Notes under the pieces: generated by a model
What the model was told of the DNA's origin: nothing
What the model saw: the letters and a program-made list of their open reading frames with translations, nothing else
Databases searched by the model: none
Program-made: the position numbers and the translations under genes
Shown here: positions 5,921-13,534 of the stretch, one piece after another
Layout: each line of letters opens with the position of its first letter
Numbering within the stretch: position 1 is the stretch's first letter
Assembly (NCBI GenBank): GCA_030650845.1
Contig: JAUSDC010000157.1
Location: forward strand, 1 to 39,312
Source: Candidatus Methanoperedens sp.
GTDB taxonomy: Archaea; Halobacteriota; Methanosarcinia; Methanosarcinales; Methanoperedenaceae
Direction of reading: 5' to 3'
DNA length: 39,312 nucleotides

Positions 5921-6108
5921 GCGCCGAGGGGGGGATTTGAACTCCCGGGGGGCTTTCGCCCCACAAGCTTTCCAGGCATAGGGGATTCTTCCCCTATAAC
6001 CCCTTCAATAACTTTACTGATACTGATTTTATTGATTCTTGCAGTAGTTGATAAAACCCAATAAAGTGAGTCTGGTATTGTAATAGATTTAAATCCTGCC
6101 TTTGTCAT
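5740..6108 (-). CDS. Integrase N-terminal part (intN) with RHH-like domain, split by integration
   Basis: The first ~63 codons (6108 to about 5920) are the 5' end of the element's integrase gene. After the attachment core the frame runs into unrelated chromosomal sequence and stops at 5740. Residues 6-37 look like a ribbon-helix-helix fold: a short strand KSITIPDSL, helix YWVLSTTARINK, then ISISKVIEGVIG. The rest up to the core is GEESPMPG, followed by core-encoded residues. Rejoining to intC across the identical core is in frame (period 7,527 = 3 x 2,509) and gives about 331 aa, close to the roughly 335 aa of the SSV1 integrase. ATG 6108 is preferred; an in-frame TTG lies 9 nt upstream. It overlaps the 3' end of the preceding 50-codon gene, so in the circular form int would be the last gene of the ardC operon. 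Confidence 0.8.
   Translation of the reverse strand: MTKAGFKSITIPDSLYWVLSTTARINKISISKVIEGVIGEESPMPGKLVGRKPPGSSNPPLGALIYLINQFTFLLFYSTWNTQALIMERYEAAHEAKGIDHIEGTQSAFRDITSFLFFRQST
5921..5977. repeat. Attachment site, distal copy (displaced tRNA-Ser 3' end)
   Basis: This 57-bp sequence is identical to 13448-13504. It is the 3' half of the original chromosomal tRNA gene, displaced by insertion. On the minus strand the bases after the discriminator G are CTC here, but CCA in the copy that now completes the tRNA, so the original gene probably did not encode the CCA tail. Both copies are read in the same protein frame (residues PGKLVGRKPPGSSNPPLG), which lets the integrase frame run through the site. 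Confidence 0.93.
5978..5997. repeat. Inverted repeat beside the attachment core
   Basis: ATAGGGGA and TCCCCTAT form a perfect 8-bp inverted repeat with a 4-nt centre, directly next to the 57-bp core on the element side and inside the intN reading frame. It could be an integrase or RHH binding site flanking the core in the circular form. That role is inference. Confidence 0.45.
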
Positions 6109-6241
6109 TATATTCAACCATCTTTACTATTTCCTGCAAACATACAAGCACCTTATTATATTGCTTTTCATCCATTACGTAATATTTCATTAGTTCAGCT
6201 TTTGACCAGCCTGCCTTAAGCTTCTGTGAAAAGGATTTCAT
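6089..6241 (-). CDS. Small 50-aa protein of the ardC-int operon
   Basis: ATG 6241 overlaps the ardC stop by 4 nt (ATGA), and the gene runs to TAA at 6089-6091. The 50-residue product starts MKSFSQKLKAGW, is rich in Lys, Met and Tyr, and looks helical with no membrane segment. The end overlaps the intN start by 20 nt. Translational coupling on both sides supports it being real. I recognise no family. By position it could be a partner or regulator of ArdC or the integrase, but nothing in the sequence proves this. Confidence 0.6.
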   Translation of the reverse strand: MKSFSQKLKAGWSKAELMKYYVMDEKQYNKVLVCLQEIVKMVEYNDKGRI

Positions 6242-6996
6242 GCCATCACCTTTGTCCTATCAATAACATAGCTCACAACCTTCTCGATTCGTCCCAGGCA
6301 TCCCATCAATTCCTTGAAGCTATAATGTTCAATGTATTCCTTAACATTGCCAAGGGGCACTTTATAGCCCATTAGATGTCCTATTACCGCACCGCTGAAC
6401 TCCGCTGTTACTTCCTGATCATTCCGCTGCCCCGCCTTTAATCCATTCAGCCTATCATCGACCGCATGGCTTAATTCATGCAAGAATATTTCAATATCAG
6501 GGGATGCAAGCCTGATTTCTTTCCTGCCCGGATTGTACGAACCATAAACCGCCCCATTGAACCTTACTGCATCAATTCTTAACCCCAATTCCTGAATTAT
6601 GCCATCAAATTGATATGGTATATCTATTTTATAGTCCTTTATTACTGGCGCGCCTTCTGTATCTTCAAACCTGAATACAGGAATCCCCCTGAAGCCTGCA
6701 AGTATCTGTTTATCCTCTATGGTCTTTTCATCTATGACCTTCCTGAACATTGGCGCGAGTATATAGAAAGCCTTTGACCCCTTCTTAATATATCTGCCTT
6801 CTTGCTTCCACTGGTTGAATCCCCTAGCATCTTCCGTATCATTCAGATACATAATTATGCGATTAAGGAAGCTCCACTTATCAGAAGGAATTACACCGCC
6901 TTTGAATACAGCATGGGCGACTTTTTCAAGGTTTCTATCATCGAACATCTTAAGAAGGGTATCCATTGCTTCTTTAACATGGTTTCGAGGGATCAT
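6238..6996 (-). CDS. ArdC-like antirestriction protein with zinc-peptidase motif
   Basis: A 252-aa protein with the two-part layout of ArdC proteins. The N-terminal part (residues about 1-90) has the ssDNA-binding-type signature ARGFNQWKQEGRYIKKGSKA followed by FYILAPMF. The C-terminal part has the metallopeptidase motif FLHELSHAVDD at about residue 170 and a downstream acidic region QEVTAEFSG that could supply the third zinc ligand. ArdC proteins of conjugative plasmids protect incoming DNA from host restriction; that role in this archaeal element is inferred from the family. The start ATG 6996 is preceded by GAGAGGGATT. It is the fourth gene of a tightly packed minus-strand operon. Confidence 0.85.
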   Translation of the reverse strand: MIPRNHVKEAMDTLLKMFDDRNLEKVAHAVFKGGVIPSDKWSFLNRIIMYLNDTEDARGFNQWKQEGRYIKKGSKAFYILAPMFRKVIDEKTIEDKQILAGFRGIPVFRFEDTEGAPVIKDYKIDIPYQFDGIIQELGLRIDAVRFNGAVYGSYNPGRKEIRLASPDIEIFLHELSHAVDDRLNGLKAGQRNDQEVTAEFSGAVIGHLMGYKVPLGNVKEYIEHYSFKELMGCLGRIEKVVSYVIDRTKVMA

Positions 6997-6998
6997 TT

Positions 6999-7106
6999 TT
7001 AATCCCTCTCTCTATTTCGATCTCGCTTTTCTTCTTCAAACTCCCTATTCATTTCTCGCGCTTCACGAATACGAATTCTTACATCTTCATCAAAAAAGAA
7101 AGTCAT
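6999..7106 (-). CDS. Tiny 35-aa charged protein
   Basis: ATG 7106 overlaps the stop of the upstream 50-codon gene (ATGA) and the frame ends at TAA 6999-7001, 2 nt before the ardC start. The product, starting MTFFFDEDVRIRIRE, is extremely rich in Arg and Glu and should be one long charged helix. The family is unknown. Support comes from tight packing and coupling rather than homology; it could also act mainly as a leader that couples translation to ardC. Confidence 0.5.
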   Translation of the reverse strand: MTFFFDEDVRIRIREAREMNREFEEEKRDRNRERD

Positions 7107-7255
7107 AGGGTTTCCCCCATTTCTTTCAATATTGTTTCGTATCCAACCATTGTGAAAGCGTACTGCTCCCAGGTTATTCTGCCGCTTGATAGTAGTTGTT
7201 CACCGACGATTCTAGCTTCACGGAAAGCCTTTTTAACTTGTTCGATTGTTTCCAT
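7103..7255 (-). CDS. Small 50-aa helical protein
   Basis: ATG 7255 has GGTGA a few bases upstream, located in the stop region of the preceding Cys-rich gene, and the frame ends at TGA 7103-7105. The product, starting METIEQVKKAFREAR, looks amphipathic and helical, with a central SSGRITWEQYAF segment. I recognise no family. It is the second gene of the ardC operon. Confidence 0.55.
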   Translation of the reverse strand: METIEQVKKAFREARIVGEQLLSSGRITWEQYAFTMVGYETILKEMGETL

Positions 7256-7260
7256 ATAGT

Positions 7261-7398
7261 TCACCTTTTACAACAAGGTGAGCCGCGCCCTTGGGTGCTG
7301 AACACACCGCAGGGGCAAACTTGCTCACTTTTCTTACAATGTTCAATATGTATCCATTGATGATAATCGTTTTGGTAACAACAGCCTTCTATTACCAT
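7261..7398 (-). CDS. Small Cys-rich protein, probable zinc-binding
   Basis: This 45-aa product runs from ATG 7398 to TGA 7261-7263. It has seven cysteines, in CCYQNDYHQWIHIEHC, CPCG and CCKR, and four histidines, spaced as in small treble-clef or zinc-ribbon proteins. It is the first gene after the AT-rich divergent promoter, so it is probably expressed first when the operon is switched on. Such micro zinc fingers are common in archaeal viruses and plasmids as DNA-binding regulators; that role here is inference. Confidence 0.55.
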   Translation of the reverse strand: MVIEGCCYQNDYHQWIHIEHCKKSEQVCPCGVFSTQGRGSPCCKR

Positions 7399-7408
7399 AA
7401 TAACCCAT

Positions 7409-7420
7409 AAATATATATCA
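7409..7420. promoter_or_regulatory. Shared TATA region between the ardC operon and the AbrB-like gene
   Basis: The sequence AAATATATATCA lies between two divergent genes. It is about 24-34 bp from the AbrB-like ATG (7443, plus) and about 11-22 bp from the Cys-rich gene ATG (7398, minus). The nearly self-complementary TATA could serve both directions. The AbrB-like product is a candidate to bind here and control both transcripts. Confidence 0.5.
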
Positions 7421-7442
7421 ATTTGACACCTAAAGGTAATAT

Positions 7443-7586
7443 ATGGCTAAAACTACCATTTTGATAAAAGATAAGAATTTCAGGATTGTAATACCTGAAG
7501 CTGTGCGAAAAGCTGAAAAACTAGAAATTAATGATATTGTGGAAATTGATATAAGAAAAATAGGGAAAGCTGAAACAAAAGGTTAG
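7443..7586 (+). CDS. AbrB-like swapped-hairpin regulator
   Basis: This 47-aa protein fits a single SpoVT/AbrB swapped-hairpin DNA-binding domain: a beta strand TTILIKDKNFRIVIPE, then AVRKAEKLEINDIVEIDI, the usual 'xIxIPxxVRxxLxIxxGDxVxI' pattern. It is shorter than most antitoxin-type AbrB proteins and has no attached domain. AGGTAA lies just before the ATG. It lies head-to-head with the ardC operon and upstream of the PH-domain gene, and probably represses the element's own promoters. No toxin partner of the PIN type is adjacent. Confidence 0.72.
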   Translation: MAKTTILIKDKNFRIVIPEAVRKAEKLEINDIVEIDIRKIGKAETKG

Positions 7587-7678
7587 AAAGCGAAAATGAT
7601 ATTAAAATAGAAAGATATTTACCATAGTTAATATTCTAAGTGGATGAATAAATAAATCAATAAAAAAAGGTGGTTTAA

Positions 7679-8089
7679 ATGTGGACAATAGATGATCATA
7701 TTCAAAAAGACGAAAACATCTTATATACAGGTAGTCCCGAATGGATTGGATTTTTTTGGCTTTTTGTTCTTGCTTTAATTACAATATTTACAGTAATAAT
7801 CCCGATAATTCTCATAGTACTAATATATCTGACAAAATCATCAACAATATATGCAATAACAAATAAAAGAGTTATTGGAAGATCAGGGATTATTTCTGAA
7901 GACTTTAAATCTTCAACCTTTAAACATATAACTTCGTTAAGAGTTAAACAAGGAATAGTCGGTAAATTATTCGGTTTTGGAAATATAATTATAGATACTT
8001 CTGGAAGCGGTTTAGGTGTTGAATTCATTTGGCGTTACGTCAATAATCCTGTACAAGTAAAAAATGAAATAGAGAAACATATTGAATAG
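7679..8089 (+). CDS. Membrane protein with bacterial-type PH domain
   Basis: A 136-aa protein. The N-terminal part (DENILYTGSPEWIGFFW) and two hydrophobic segments at about residues 25-58 form a membrane hairpin. A small PH-like beta domain follows (STIYAITNKRVIGRSGIISE, then HITSLRVKQGIVGKLFGFGN and IIIDTSGSG), as in YdbS/YdbT-like bPH_2 proteins. The AGGTGG upstream of ATG 7679 is a good ribosome site. The function of these proteins is generally unknown; in an integrated element a role at the membrane, such as interaction with the host envelope, is only a guess. Confidence 0.75.
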   Translation: MWTIDDHIQKDENILYTGSPEWIGFFWLFVLALITIFTVIIPIILIVLIYLTKSSTIYAITNKRVIGRSGIISEDFKSSTFKHITSLRVKQGIVGKLFGFGNIIIDTSGSGLGVEFIWRYVNNPVQVKNEIEKHIE

Positions 8090-8337
8090 ATATTTTTGGG
8101 TTTCTTAGCGCCAAATTCGGAAAGAAAGCAGCAACCTGAAGCCGTATTCATAGGAAGACTGAGGATGTCCGAGAATGCACGATCGTGTGGGCTTTAGGGT
8201 AAAGCACTTATTGTCGGCTGTGTATATCTGCATAGTCGCATTTCTTGGTAGGATGCCCAAAAAAAAATTTCAGATTTTTAAAGATCAATATCGGAAGTTA
8301 TTTGATAATGAAGGTTATATATTCGAGGGAGGGAAGA
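8090..8337. other. Spacer with two palindromes before the 4-TM gene
   Basis: No gene is evident; the in-frame upstream extension of the next gene lacks a ribosome site. The stretch is less AT-rich than its neighbours. It contains the perfect palindrome CACGATCGTG (8178-8187) and GCTTTA/TAAAGC (8191-8205), a 6-bp hairpin with a 3-nt loop. It could hold a structured leader or a small RNA, but nothing known is recognised. Confidence 0.35.
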
Positions 8338-9198
8338 ATGCCAGGTACTATACCACAATGGATTACAGATATTGAGAGTGATGAGAAGGATTACAAGAAA
8401 AAACGCAATGATATTTTCATTTTTTCATTATTCATATTTATTGCATATGCAATTGTTGTTCAATTAAAATTTTTAAATAATTTATATGTAGCAATATTAA
8501 CTGTAATTATATTACTGATTTTAATAGTGTTTTTAAGTAAAATACAAGCTCAAGAACTTAATCTGCCAAATCTATTAGCAGCAAATTTATTCAATATTGG
8601 AACAGAGCTTGAAGCCTTCGATTCAACATCGCCAAGTTATTTAAAACGGAATCAACAATATTTAAAAAATTGTCAGAGGATATTGAATGATTTATTTGTA
8701 GAAGACAGCTATTTTATTGAAGATTATAAAAAATTTTTAAACAACATAGATAATATTATTCTACGTATAAATTACTTTTATTCGATTAATTCAAAACCTA
8801 CTAATCATAGCATTTCATCGGATTTAAAAGCATTAGCTGAAACCATCCACAATGATTATAAAAACTTAAAACCAGTGCATACAGCATACGTGGAAGGAAT
8901 ATTATCTAATTTACAAGCAATAGAACCAAAACCACTCAATATATCCTTCATAAATAAGTGGCTTAAATCATTTATTACTGGTTGGTATAATATTTCATAT
9001 TCTTATAGAGCAGCTTCCACCCTTTTATTCATTGGAATAATTACTTTTTCCTCTTTATCTATTGGAATGATCTATGTTTTGGGTATGGAAAACCAACTGT
9101 CGTATAGTAATTCTATTATGGGGGCAATTGCTATAATAGCAGGTTCGATAACTCAAATAGATAAAATAGTGCCAAAAGAAAAAATTAAGTTTTCTTGA
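8338..9198 (+). CDS. Unknown membrane protein, four predicted TM helices
   Basis: Start chosen at ATG 8338, which has GAGGGAGG 6 nt upstream; the frame is open further upstream without a ribosome site. The 286-aa product has a charged N-terminus (MPGTIPQWITDIESDEKDYK), two adjacent helices (IFIFSLFIFIAYAIVVQL and YVAILTVIILLILIVFL), and a soluble helical middle of about 130 residues rich in Asn, Leu and Lys. Two more helices close the protein (LLFIGIITFSSLSIGMIYVL and IMGAIAIIAGSI), then a short Lys-rich tail. I recognise no family. The layout, paired helices around a helical core, resembles membrane effectors of defence or exclusion systems, but that is speculation. Very AT-rich codon use suggests recent acquisition. 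Confidence 0.7.
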   Translation: MPGTIPQWITDIESDEKDYKKKRNDIFIFSLFIFIAYAIVVQLKFLNNLYVAILTVIILLILIVFLSKIQAQELNLPNLLAANLFNIGTELEAFDSTSPSYLKRNQQYLKNCQRILNDLFVEDSYFIEDYKKFLNNIDNIILRINYFYSINSKPTNHSISSDLKALAETIHNDYKNLKPVHTAYVEGILSNLQAIEPKPLNISFINKWLKSFITGWYNISYSYRAASTLLFIGIITFSSLSIGMIYVLGMENQLSYSNSIMGAIAIIAGSITQIDKIVPKEKIKFS

Positions 9199-9252
9199 CA
9201 TCGCGAACATGAAAAATGGATTTGATATGTTTGTATATCAAACACCCGTAGG

Positions 9253-9315
9253 AAGTTTTGCTCGCGTATGCGAAGCATCGCAGACTGCCCGCAGGCAGGA
9301 TGCTGAGCAAAGCTT
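9253..9315. repeat. GC-rich multi-stem structure between convergent genes
   Basis: Nested inverted repeats in an otherwise AT-rich gap. The outer stem 9253-9263 pairs with 9305-9315 (11 bp, one G-T). Stem 9274-9279 pairs with 9299-9304 (6 bp), directly stacked on the outer strand. CTGCC 9285-9289 pairs with GGCAG 9294-9298 (CGCA loop). A second inverted repeat, TTTGATAT/ATATCAAA, lies at 9221-9242. It could be a non-coding RNA, a REP/MITE-like repeat, an origin structure or a two-way terminator. Confidence 0.5.
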
Positions 9316-9470
9316 ACTGAAAAAGTTTTACCATTCTTTCTTAAGATACTACCACTACTATAATATATTATATAGGGCACTCCCATCTATTGCTTGTGGT
9401 TTTTGAACATCAAAAAATGAATTGCTTGAGCCGGTTGTGAAAGTTTTATATTTATAATTTTATTGAAATA

Positions 9471-11057
9471 CTATATCTTAGAATGTGAATATCTTTTCTT
9501 TCTCTTTAGGTTGAACAAGAAAGTCGGCACATCTTTGGTTTTAATTAGCTCAAATGCAAGTTCTTTTTTTATCCTTTCTGGAACTATTCCAAGAACATAG
9601 ATCCTTCTGTCATGGATAAGCCCGCGATTTCTATGTATTACGTCTATCATTTCGTTTTCTTCCTCTACACGCTGAATAATTTCTAATTCTGTCCCTATAT
9701 AATCCGGAAACTTGCCTTTATCTACATAAGGAAAATTTGAAGGATTTAAGCTGGCGTTATATAGTCCATTGTATTTTCTCACTTTTTCACCGATAGATAG
9801 CGTGTATGTGCCTATAATTATCAGAACATCTTTGTTTTCAAACTTATTCAATCCTGAAGTATCTCCGAAATGTGCAGCCTCAAATCCCCATGCGGTGTCC
9901 ATTTTTTTAGTGGCGTCATATTGAGTATATTCTTTATAGGTTATTACGCCCACATTTTTCTTCTTGTAGATTTTGTCTATTTTTTGTAAAAAATCAATCA
10001 CATATTTTTCTTCTAACTTCCTTCTGCCAAACCCTTTGTTAGTTATTTGATAGCATTTTGTATCTTTATTTTCCAGATTAGATGTATGAATTCCAAAGGT
10101 TAAATGGTCTGTAGCTGGAAACTCTCTTTCGTATCTGGCAAGCAGGTCTTTGAATAACTGTTCATCAAATCCAGCATGTGATAATACAATCTTCGTCCCT
10201 GCTTTTGCCATATCAAATGCTTTGTAAATGCGTGGTTCGTAATATACCTCTTTATTATAATTGTATATTTTGCCATATTTTAGGTAACCTTTTAGCATGT
10301 TAATATCAAATTTCTGCACTTCCTTTAAAATGTCGATATCCTGTTTTTTTATGGCATTAACTATAACTTCTTTTTTGATATGTGCTGCAATATTGATGTA
10401 TTTTTCAAGAAATTCATAGTCTTTATTTTCAACTGCATTGGAAAAATCCCATAAAACATTCTCCAATAATGGTTTAGTGGTACTCCCTTCAGCCTCAAAT
10501 TCCCATATATCTTTCCATTCTGCTTTATCTTTATCAAATTCATAATTCAATGCAATTGCTATAGAACCATTTACTATATCATCTGCTTTAAACCAAAAAG
10601 GGGTGGTTTCTGTTATCTTTTCTTCTATGAAGATTTTATCAAATCCATCTTCTCCGCTTCGTGGAAATAAGTATTCGGTATTCAAATACTCTGTTGGTGC
10701 GCCTACTCGGAATGTGTTATTAAACTGCTCCCTATAATTGCATTTTTTGCTGCAAGTTTTACAAATAAAAGTACCATATAAACCAACACTATCAAACTTG
10801 TTAAAATCTGGATGCTTGCAAAAGTGCTTTTGTCCATACCAGTGGCAAAATCCATCAACTTTCTTTTCGCATTCTTTAAGCCAATTATGACGTTTTGTTA
10901 AAATAGCTATATTTTCCTCTGGATGCTTATTACAGTAATTTCGAATAAATGTACTTTTTCCTGCTCCTTGCTGTTGGTTTAATGTGGTGATGTCCTCTTC
11001 AAATTTTATTTTCCCCATATCTGAACGTAATTTTTTAATAGCTTTTTTATCTACCAT
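9471..11057 (-). CDS. Putative helicase-like ATPase with Cys cluster
   Basis: This 528-aa protein (ATG 11057 preferred; an in-frame TTG lies 9 nt upstream) looks like the SF2-type helicases of archaeal plasmids and viruses. Motif I is NQQQGAGKST near residue 30. A Cys/His-rich segment follows at about residues 70-110 (FCHWYGQKHFCKH, then CKTCSKKCNYREQF). The Walker B-like motif is DKIFIEEK. Motif III-like VLSHAGFDEQLFKDLL lies near residue 300, motif V-like GDTSGLNKFENKDVLIIIGT near 415, and a final IIQRVEEENEMIDVIHRNR segment resembles motif VI. The Cys cluster between motifs I and II is placed like the Fe-S or zinc insertion of XPD-like or phage helicases. It is the largest gene of the element and the best candidate for its replication protein. 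The Walker A lacks the usual first Gly, and the Walker B has EE in place of DE. Confidence 0.65.
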   Translation of the reverse strand: MVDKKAIKKLRSDMGKIKFEEDITTLNQQQGAGKSTFIRNYCNKHPEENIAILTKRHNWLKECEKKVDGFCHWYGQKHFCKHPDFNKFDSVGLYGTFICKTCSKKCNYREQFNNTFRVGAPTEYLNTEYLFPRSGEDGFDKIFIEEKITETTPFWFKADDIVNGSIAIALNYEFDKDKAEWKDIWEFEAEGSTTKPLLENVLWDFSNAVENKDYEFLEKYINIAAHIKKEVIVNAIKKQDIDILKEVQKFDINMLKGYLKYGKIYNYNKEVYYEPRIYKAFDMAKAGTKIVLSHAGFDEQLFKDLLARYEREFPATDHLTFGIHTSNLENKDTKCYQITNKGFGRRKLEEKYVIDFLQKIDKIYKKKNVGVITYKEYTQYDATKKMDTAWGFEAAHFGDTSGLNKFENKDVLIIIGTYTLSIGEKVRKYNGLYNASLNPSNFPYVDKGKFPDYIGTELEIIQRVEEENEMIDVIHRNRGLIHDRRIYVLGIVPERIKKELAFELIKTKDVPTFLFNLKRKKRYSHSKI

Positions 11058-11562
11058 TTCTCTCAATTCCTATTTTCCGTAAAATATCTACTACGGATAC
11101 TCTTTCAACATTTATAGAATTGTGGCAAACCTATTTAGTCATTGTTGGTCAAAATATTGCGAATGTAATAAATAGAAGGAAACCATATTTGGTTAATGCA
11201 TTTTGATAAATTCGCTATCCAAATGCTCAATTCCGCATGCTGCCTTCTTTCAACAAACTTTTTGGTAGCATGCAATTTTTGGCTTAGCGTTAGCTTTTAT
11301 ATAAATACAGCATTATTTCGTATGTTCGTGCTTTAACGAACAGTTCCTTTGAGCCGATGATAAGGATACTTGATATGTGTATGTTGGATTTACATAGCGC
11401 ACGAGAACAAAGAAAAGCCTATGGGAAAAATGCTGTCAAATCTTTCAGTCTGAGCAGATTTCACACCACAAAGTTGTAATGGGGTTCAATGCACCATCTA
11501 TTTTTTTATCACTATCGGTACTTTCATATAACAGTATCACAATTTAAGTTTGAGGCTGTGGC
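11058..11562. other. Intergenic region with hairpins, possible origin or promoter region
   Basis: About 500 nt upstream of the helicase-like gene without a clear gene. It has a 10-bp hairpin with one G-T pair (11235-11244 with 11264-11273), a strong TATA-like TTTATATAA at 11296-11304, and a 6-bp hairpin GTTCGT/ACGAAC at 11324-11341. A 40-codon open frame (11357-11479, plus) is possible but unsupported. Non-coding AT-rich sequence with inverted repeats beside the putative helicase gene would fit a replication origin; this is inference. Confidence 0.4.
11235..11273. repeat. Hairpin upstream of the helicase-like gene
   Basis: GCATGCTGCC and GGTAGCATGC pair over 10 positions (one G-T) around a 19-nt loop. 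It contains the palindromes GCATGC on each arm. It lies 178 bp upstream of the helicase-like start and is a candidate iteron or initiator-binding structure. Confidence 0.45.
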
Positions 11563-12180
11563 ATGTCATTAACTAGATTTCAAAATTTTATTAAAAAACT
11601 TGACAGACCTGAAGATCATTATAAATCATTAACTGAAATAATGAGGGATTTACAACCGATAGCATTCTTAATTTCAGCTTCATTAATCTTATCAGTTTTT
11701 CTTGGAAATAAACCGATCAGTCAAGGATATGCGGTTTTTGCGAGTGTTTTATTTTTTATGGCATATGTAGGGATCGTTGTTTTTAATATTTTTAAATACA
11801 AGTGGTTTTTTTATTGGGGATTATCTTTAATCGTATTGGGTATAACTTTTCTGTATTATTCATTTGGAGATGTCATTTCAATAATTTTAAAAAGTAACAT
11901 TGATAAAAATTTTTCTTTTGCAGTTTCTTTGGTCGTAATATCTATGGTTATTATCTTGAATAAATTTTCATTAGATTATAGTAATAATAAAAATATTTTT
12001 TATAAAATTCTCCGCATTTCGTTTTGGGTTGAATTAGTTTTAATTCTAATATTTCTTACCGTAAGTATATACTTAAACATCTATATATTCACTATTGGAT
12101 TATTTTTAATAGGGATTTTGTTAATGATGAATATTATTTTAATACCATTATCACAGATGTTGAATAGTAACAATAAATGA
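11563..12180 (+). CDS. Unknown membrane protein, about six TM helices
   Basis: A 205-aa protein with a 30-residue charged N-terminus (MSLTRFQNFIKKLDRPEDHY) and about six hydrophobic helices, starting at PIAFLISASLILSVFLG and ending at FTIGLFLIGILLMMNIILI. There is no soluble domain and no recognised motif. It stands alone in the plus direction, with GAGGCTG shortly before the ATG as a weak ribosome site. Codon use is strongly AT-rich, like the 4-TM gene at 8338. No function can be assigned. Small multi-pass proteins in mobile elements often serve in entry exclusion or membrane defence, but no evidence distinguishes these. Confidence 0.65.
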   Translation: MSLTRFQNFIKKLDRPEDHYKSLTEIMRDLQPIAFLISASLILSVFLGNKPISQGYAVFASVLFFMAYVGIVVFNIFKYKWFFYWGLSLIVLGITFLYYSFGDVISIILKSNIDKNFSFAVSLVVISMVIILNKFSLDYSNNKNIFYKILRISFWVELVLILIFLTVSIYLNIYIFTIGLFLIGILLMMNIILIPLSQMLNSNNK

Positions 12181-12319
12181 ATTTTCTTGAGTATATCTAT
12201 ACAATATAGACTACACATTCAACCACAAAAACAAAGCCCAGAACAGGGCGTTGGAATGAACTTTTCAACGAGGAAAAGCTTATTGTGGAAAACGCTGTCA
12301 AACATTTAAGTAAGAATAA

Positions 12320-12613
<294 letters not shown>

Positions 12614-12639
12614 TTTCTGATTATTTCAAAGGTATGCAA

Positions 12640-13446
12640 CTAACCTAATATTTTGATGTTCGCTTTACTGTAAATCTCCTTCAACACTTCCGGCGAATAA
12701 TCGCTATAATGTCGCGCTAATACGCTTTGGGGCGTTCTTCCACAAAAACAATCTATGTATCTATCCTGCACCCCTGCCTTGCTCATTTCCCTTGCGAACA
12801 CAGAACGAAGGGTTTGGGCTGACATGTTGATACCTGTTTTATCAGCAACATCTTTAAAAACATGGGATATGGTGTTTCTTGAAGTGTTAAAGGGTTTTTC
12901 ATCGTATATTTCTGCAGTCTCTTCATTGTAAAACGAAATCCAAGCATTTTTCGTGCTGCCATCGTGGGACTGTGGTATTATCATCCTCTGTGCATTATCA
13001 ATTTTTGCGCTTAACAGTTCTGAAACCCTCAATCCTGAACTTCCAAGCATAATAAAAATAATTCGATATTTTGGCAATGGTAAGGCATCATAGAAGGTTA
13101 TTAACTGCTTCTTGTTTGGTAGAATCTTTGGTTTGAAACCAATGGCTGGAAATTTGAAATCCTCAATAATTTCTGGTTGTTTAAGAAAATCTCTGAAATA
13201 TATCTTAAGTGCAGAAAGGTAGTTCTTATATGTGGCATTTGATTTCGTAATTTTAACTTGTTCCATGAATTCCTGAACATTGAGATTAGATTGCTGGAAA
13301 ACCTTGAGATTTCTTAAATGGTTATCTACTGTCGCACCAGAAAGGTTTTTCTGAACACATAAGAACTTTTTAAAATCTGACATTGAAAATGTATTCGTAT
13401 AGTACTTTTCCTTTTTATGGACTGCACCATCATTTTCAAAAATCAT
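12640..13446 (-). CDS. Integrase C-terminal part (intC), tyrosine recombinase
   Basis: This piece holds the core-binding and catalytic domains of the split SSV-type integrase. The N-terminal SAM-like part has TVDNHLRNLKVFQQ and NYLSALKIYFRDF. Catalytic motifs: the first Arg in LGSSGLRVSELLSA, the second Arg in AQTLRSVFARE (a Gln stands where most family members have His), and the nucleophile Tyr in SVLARHYSDY. The 268-aa frame starts at ATG 13446, which shares its A with the tRNA CCA end. The frame is open through the tRNA 3' half (a GTG at 13491 is possible), as needed to join intN in the circular element. In the integrated state this half lacks the RHH-like head, so it may be inactive or only partly active. 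Confidence 0.88.
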   Translation of the reverse strand: MIFENDGAVHKKEKYYTNTFSMSDFKKFLCVQKNLSGATVDNHLRNLKVFQQSNLNVQEFMEQVKITKSNATYKNYLSALKIYFRDFLKQPEIIEDFKFPAIGFKPKILPNKKQLITFYDALPLPKYRIIFIMLGSSGLRVSELLSAKIDNAQRMIIPQSHDGSTKNAWISFYNEETAEIYDEKPFNTSRNTISHVFKDVADKTGINMSAQTLRSVFAREMSKAGVQDRYIDCFCGRTPQSVLARHYSDYSPEVLKEIYSKANIKILG

Positions 13447-13534
13447 GGCGCCGAGGGGGGGATTTGAACTCCCGGGGGGCTTTCGCCCCACAAGCTTTCC
13501 AGGCTTGCGCCTTGGGCCGCTGGGCTACCTCGGC
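13446..13534 (-). tRNA. tRNA-Ser (GGA), attachment target of the element
   Basis: The minus-strand sequence folds as a class II tRNA. Acceptor 5' GCCGAGG pairs with CCTCGGC, discriminator G is followed by encoded CCA, and the anticodon stem CAAGC/GCTTG encloses loop CTGGAAA with anticodon GGA (codons UCC/UCU). A long variable arm GGGGCGAAAGCCCC and a T-loop TTCAAAT complete it. The T-stem has one A-C mismatch. The 5' part is chromosomal; the 3' part from the anticodon loop on was supplied by the element and preserves the tRNA. It lies downstream of cbf5 on the same strand. A TATA-like stretch (TTTTTTATAC, about 13617-13626) would imply a long leader. Confidence 0.92.
13448..13504. repeat. Attachment site, proximal copy (inside tRNA-Ser)
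   Basis: The second copy of the perfect 57-bp direct repeat, forming the 3' part of the functional tRNA-Ser gene. It spans the anticodon loop, variable arm, T-arm, acceptor 3' strand and the first base of CCA. Crossover in or near the anticodon loop is typical of SSV-type integrases. Confidence 0.93.

Follow-up and report, generated by a model that had tools for sequence, protein, structure and literature searches.

A run of very short reading frames around an ArdC-like gene, ending in an integrase gene, raises the question of which of these frames encode proteins and how their expression is controlled. We addressed it in a window of 39,312 nucleotides, which is contig C9 of a 3.4-Mb archaeal genome (Table 1). 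All frames named in a first-pass annotation, which saw five micro-genes and intN in tight single-strand coupling, were found on the minus strand. The coupling was borne out: ATGA overlaps join the first 50-aa gene (p50up) to the 35-aa frame (7106-7103) and ardC to the second 50-aa gene (p50dn; 6241-6238), a gap of 2 nt separates the 35-aa frame from ardC, and the operon continues into the integrase, as had been proposed, through a 20-nt overlap between p50dn and intN. The idea that the small frames are genes held for both 50-aa frames, which are under purifying selection. It failed for the 35-aa frame, for which a homolog search detected none, and for the 45-aa frame, which lies over an RNA leader. 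Judged from sequence conservation, p50up, the ArdC-like gene and p50dn are the conserved genes before intN.

Table 1. Features of the integrated element, its operon and its leader in the window, and loci of the second leader family.
Feature	Position	Strand	Remarks
Integrated SSV-type element	5921..13504		about 7.5 kb; 57-bp direct repeats and split integrase joining in frame
Left att repeat, inside intN	5921..5977		57 bp, 100% identical to 13448-13504
intN, N-terminal part of split integrase	5921..6108	-	ATG 6108; in frame with intC across att
p50dn, 50-aa three-helix (HTH-like) protein	6089..6241	-	homologs; predicted model pLDDT 89
ArdC-like protein, 252 aa	6238..6996	-	HELSH metallopeptidase motif
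35-aa frame	6999..7106	-	ATGA-coupled; without detectable homolog
p50up, 50-aa first gene of operon	7103..7255	-	alternative upstream GTG at 7264 possible
Conserved structured leader RNA	7253..7338	-	86 nt, ends on ATG of p50up; covariance model 74 bits
Leader P1	7328-7323 / 7283-7278	-	GUGAGC / GCUCAC
Leader P2	7316-7310 / 7293-7287	-
Leader P3	7308-7305 / 7297-7294	-
Ribosome-site hairpin	7280-7275 / 7267-7262	-	CAC 7280-7278 common with outer end of P1
45-aa Cys-rich frame, rejected as gene	7261..7398	-	frame unconserved, overlies leader
TATA-like promoter element	7405..7419	-	best TATA-like match, 95 nt before P1
Divergent MazE/AbrB-like small regulator	7443..7586	+	also beside ardC in G005, G027, G003
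531-aa P-loop protein	9471..11066	-	28% identical homolog in G027 element
intC, catalytic part of tyrosine recombinase	12640..13447	-	PF00589, PF16795
tRNA-Ser (GGA), integration target	13446..13534	-	ARAGORN and Rfam
Right att repeat	13448..13504		3' part of tRNA-Ser
Second leader loci L163-L182	G003:C12, G003:C22, G008:C86, G008:C31, G017:C49, G000:C248, G000:C98, G012:C76, G023:C117

Joining the ends of the element unites intN and intC in a single frame of 996 nt (331 aa), read from the ATG at 6108 through the left att repeat into the sequence beyond the right att repeat; in the window, the open frame of intN extends to 5740, into host DNA. Both integrase domains scored above their cut-offs (PF16795, Phage_integr_3, 29.3 bits against 27.0; PF00589, 30.8 against 27.1). 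We classify the element as an integrated element of the SSV ('suicidal') type with predicted recombination activity; an att site inside the integrase's own gene, which is split on insertion, is textbook behaviour of such integrases (PMC8371274). Like SSV1, pTN3 and pT26-2, which carry SSV-type (type I archaeal) integrases, it combines a tyrosine recombinase containing PF16795 with an att site within the integrase gene, a tRNA target and an insertion that divides the gene into intN and intC. The att repeats found here, of 57-58 bp, slightly exceed the 40-50 bp usual for SSV-type integrases (PMC8371274), and, unlike in the known systems, a structured leader stands before an ardC operon whose final gene is intN. 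Because intN is cut off from intC in the integrated state, the operon then yields no whole integrase, and the circular form alone unites it with a complete integrase gene. The earlier suggestion that the module integrates or excises DNA must be qualified accordingly. Elsewhere in the element, the 531-aa protein carries a GAGKST P-loop and Cys clusters, scored above the cut-off of no family and is perhaps the replication helicase of the element. A 93-aa frame (12332-12613, plus strand) adjoins intC and looks nuclease-like by eye.

Related sequences were found in G005 and G027, two genomes placed in the same genus as that of the window. In the sister species G027, a related element lies between 58-bp repeats at a tRNA-Thr and encodes an integrase about 50% identical to that of the window. 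It repeats the order leader, 50-aa gene, ardC, 50-aa gene, intN, so the module is conserved in another archaeal element, as the first-pass annotation had anticipated, minus the 35-aa slot. This recurrence, together with the purifying selection on both 50-aa proteins, indicates that the arrangement exceeds chance. G005 carries a related integrase (61%) overlapping a tRNA-Ser, with its ardC operon on the opposite strand about 18 kb away. The slot of the 35-aa frame is empty in both genomes; in G030:C94, an unrelated frame of 44 aa takes its place.

The identification of an ArdC-like gene in mid-operon was upheld by motifs and fold. The HELSH and EVTA motifs seen in its alignment correspond to the HExxH and ExxA of gluzincins, as defined for the ArdC C-terminal domain (PMC7213743). 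In a predicted model of moderate confidence (pLDDT 68), the protease domain had R388 ArdC (6sna) as its top fold match (Z 11.6 over 125 residues, 3.8 A; next protein, 6.8); searching PDB with the sequence alone returned no significant match. The N-terminal, ssDNA-binding ArdC-N domain reached 18.7 bits in the window protein, below the Pfam cut-off of 22.6, and 26.6 bits, above it, in a close relative. Relatives occur in 11 genomes of the genus (the window's own counted, and some being fragments), in one genome of another family of the order, in Archaeoglobi and in 739 bacterial plasmid records, while an ArdC query found none in viral contigs. Hence, the protein resembles R388 ArdC in its HExxH and ExxA motifs, its metallopeptidase-domain fold and its carriage by mobile elements, and differs from it in the sub-threshold ArdC-N domain, the archaeal operon and an antirestriction function that is putative here. 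By analogy, it may protect incoming DNA.

Both 50-aa genes are conserved at the amino acid level, with dN/dS well under 1, in line with their proposed coding status. At eight leader-linked loci, p50up aligned without gaps and with 20 invariant positions. Its pairwise dN/dS (NG86) was 0.06-0.44 (median 0.16) where measurable, the 12 of 28 pairs with saturated dS being left out, and changes by codon position numbered 371/328/680, third positions changing about twice as often. Further p50up homologs exist beyond these eight loci; the consensus protein had no matches in plasmids. For p50dn, dN was 0.17 and dS 0.91 between the window and G027 (ratio 0.18). Relatives of p50dn were found in nine genomes, including another family of the order, and a search of phages with one of them gave no matches. 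We read its predicted model as HTH-like; a comparison of the fold with PDB gave weak matches only, several of them to HTH proteins and none significant. Since p50dn overlaps intN, a role as a regulator or directionality factor is plausible.

The 45-aa Cys-rich frame fared differently from the 50-aa genes. The first-pass annotation took it as the real first gene of the five-gene micro-operon, and in the window it is indeed open, with an ATG, downstream of a TATA-like stretch. However, the nucleotide matches that BLAST found for this region at other loci in the genus contain frame-disrupting indels, 15 of 19 other homologous loci lack the ATG, and the peptide differs between loci. The nucleotide conservation is explained by the covarying RNA structure that the frame overlies. 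Moreover, with transcription starts estimated from the general rule for their spacing from the TATA box, the ATG (7398) precedes the estimated start, near 7387. We rejected the frame and consider it very improbable that it is a gene; tiny frames over structured leaders can masquerade as micro-genes. In most leader copies, the TATA box is located 38-41 nt ahead of P1, a spacing that predicts an RNA starting where the leader starts. The window departs from this, with its box about 95 nt ahead of P1, a shift of about 55 nt compared with most copies. The divergently encoded MazE/AbrB-like protein may be a repressor acting on the shared promoter region.

A covariance model built from 15 aligned leader matches detected 20 strong copies, of which 19 belong to the genus and the remaining one to a second genus of the same family. 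A further copy, in an IMG/VR virus contig, was found by pattern and confirmed with the model, and the 21 copies score 55-104 bits. Over these distinct copies, 93.7% of cells were paired, compared with 41-51% in slid controls, and 11 of 21 pairs had changed on both sides, compared with a shuffle mean of 4.2; some inflation is likely, as the controls take no account of phylogeny and the structure guided the alignment. RNAalifold recovered the same helices when the structure was not supplied. Compensating changes include GGUG/CACC to GGAG/CUCC, AUUCC/GGAAU to ACCUU/AAGGU, and GCCCCUG/CAGAGGC to both GCCUGUG/CACAGGC and GCUCCCG/CGGGAGC. Four of the six pairs of the ribosome-site hairpin covary, and P1, almost invariant, is the helix least tested by covariation. 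An extension of P1 through a 5' AGGAA arm is complementary in most copies but shows no covariation (382 of 2000 partner shuffles scored as high), and we do not claim this extended helix.

Every one of the 21 copies ends on the ATG of a small gene, and 18 of these first genes stop in ATGA or GTGA. They comprise groups of 50 aa, of 62-68 aa and, in viruses, of 43-49 aa, plus a few unrelated or broken frames. The next genes encode ArdC, a SWIM zinc-finger protein with ArdC, canonical ArdC with p50dn (G000:C212, G011) or viral proteins. The contexts are mobile, namely tRNA-inserted elements, provirus-like loci and the IMG/VR virus contig; around the leader in G005:C65, G014:C5, G024:C75, G032:C43 and G001:C35, we read the genes as terminase, portal, protease and tape-measure. 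On the 25-kb virus contig (IMGVR_UViG_3300013137_000093, locus L162), the leader (10967-11050) lies between apparent portal and prohead protease genes and is followed by a 49-aa frame and then a p50dn relative; two fragments from this locus had no match in Pfam. At the provirus-like locus L114 (G001:C35), two leader copies 0.8 kb apart (11837-11919 and 12682-12767) stand directly before two integrase-like genes.

Searches with the 4227 covariance models of Rfam gave no match over the leader, either in the window at E values up to 5 or in five copies at E values up to 10, and nothing relevant in its flanks. Among 186 genomes of the order, the leader was confined to Methanoperedenaceae, and among 393 genomes sampled from the phylum, it was found in the window's own genome alone. 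In viral contigs, the first and third DNA patterns matched none and the second matched one virus. In the papers searched, outside subscription journals, we found no report of these leaders. The sequence evidence identifies the family as a new point: it is a conserved leader of Methanoperedenaceae mobile elements and (pro)viruses, and of one metagenomic virus.

Four p50up relatives that precede a DUF932-like gene follow an unrelated leader with the three-way junction GCC-GAUUUU...AAAAUC-GGC. Its model gave 17 strong places, spread over six genomes, with multiple copies, up to four, on single contigs. This second leader, of about 115-130 nt, covaries strongly (98.8% paired, two-sided changes in 12 of 24 pairs), had no match in Rfam, and precedes p50up/DUF932, RadC-like (UPF0758), DUF1848, SWIM-type and other genes. 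The presence of relatives of one 50-aa protein behind two different leaders supports leader control of p50up as a theme. Separately, G014:C1 (486043-486338) has p50dn immediately after p50up, with no ArdC gene between them; the hairpin leader ahead of the pair is a third, unrelated one, and the ribosome site is part of it.

What, then, does the leader do? Its position at the start codon, the covarying ribosome-site hairpin and the coupling overlaps together suggest that the whole operon is controlled at the level of translation via its first small gene, and we infer that the leader works as RNA, modulates translation and responds to some switching signal. The most likely reading is an early or establishment operon whose translation is controlled in cis by this RNA. 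We think it probable that the locus is such an operon of an SSV-type element, with translation controlled by the folded leader and coupled onward. A single transcript starting from the TATA box (7419-7405) would carry the folded leader (7338-7253), that is, the P1-P2-P3 domain and then a hairpin including part of the p50up Shine-Dalgarno. The fold would set the efficiency of ribosome initiation on p50up, and coupling through ATGA/GTGA or near-overlaps would pass translation on to ardC, HTH-like p50dn and intN. This leader would likewise serve the small-gene operons of viruses and other mobile elements in the family. As in riboswitches and other cis-acting translational leaders, a conserved covarying 5' leader ends at the downstream ribosome site; unlike known riboswitches, it has no Rfam match and occurs so far only in mobile elements and viruses of one archaeal family. 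Against this reading, part of the GGAGG is in the hairpin loop, and computed pairing of the ribosome site averaged 0.48, not above that of shuffled upstream sequence (0.62). In the ensemble, the hairpin competes with pairing by the 5' arm, an interaction that itself shows no covariation; the hairpin prevails in most copies and the alternative fold in about a quarter. Two competing folds would fit a two-state switch.

That the ribosome site is only partly masked in these ensembles would also suit a true leader RNA that is constitutive, acting in mRNA stability or ribosome loading, or one that is the binding site of an element-encoded protein, p50up or p50dn, that represses its own operon. The lack of ligand evidence and the presence of p50up or p50dn directly behind many leaders are in keeping with such roles, to which we give a sizeable, if minority, chance. 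However, the same leader precedes operons without p50up, those with first genes of 62-68 aa, and p50up relatives follow an unrelated leader. Hairpins also fold in DNA, and the conserved stretch is found in mobile elements beside ardC-type genes, so it might instead act as DNA, either as an operator, as a recombination or replication signal, or as a single-strand promoter of the Frpo kind, from which establishment genes would be read on incoming single-stranded DNA. In bacterial plasmids, genes of the leading region have Frpo hairpins in front of them (PMC11541004), and the window likewise has a fold before establishment or anti-restriction type genes of mobile DNA. Frpo promoter elements are inside the hairpin, whereas the ordinary archaeal TATA element, the one promoter element examined here, is outside the fold and 38-41 nt upstream in most copies, and the fold lies within the transcribed leader. 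The structure also ends at a near-fixed distance from the ATG, its last hairpin holds part of the ribosome site, and some copies lie within operons for viral structural proteins, flanked by what appear to be portal and protease genes. A role as DNA is thus unlikely.

Few cis-acting control RNAs are, to our knowledge, known in archaea. Translational control by the leader would concern both viruses and integrated elements of anaerobic methane oxidisers, which have this leader in common, and its covariation is sufficient for the design of tests. More tentatively, Methanoperedenaceae viruses and integrative elements might share at least two unrecognised RNA switches before small coupled genes, which would detect a shared signal, of the host or of entry, and activate genes for establishment and anti-defence as well as integrase genes. 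This broader view is rather doubtful at present; if true, it would reveal an RNA-level decision system of the archaeal mobilome. The leader itself would offer a direct handle on the timing of entry-gene expression in a host that is not yet easily manipulated.
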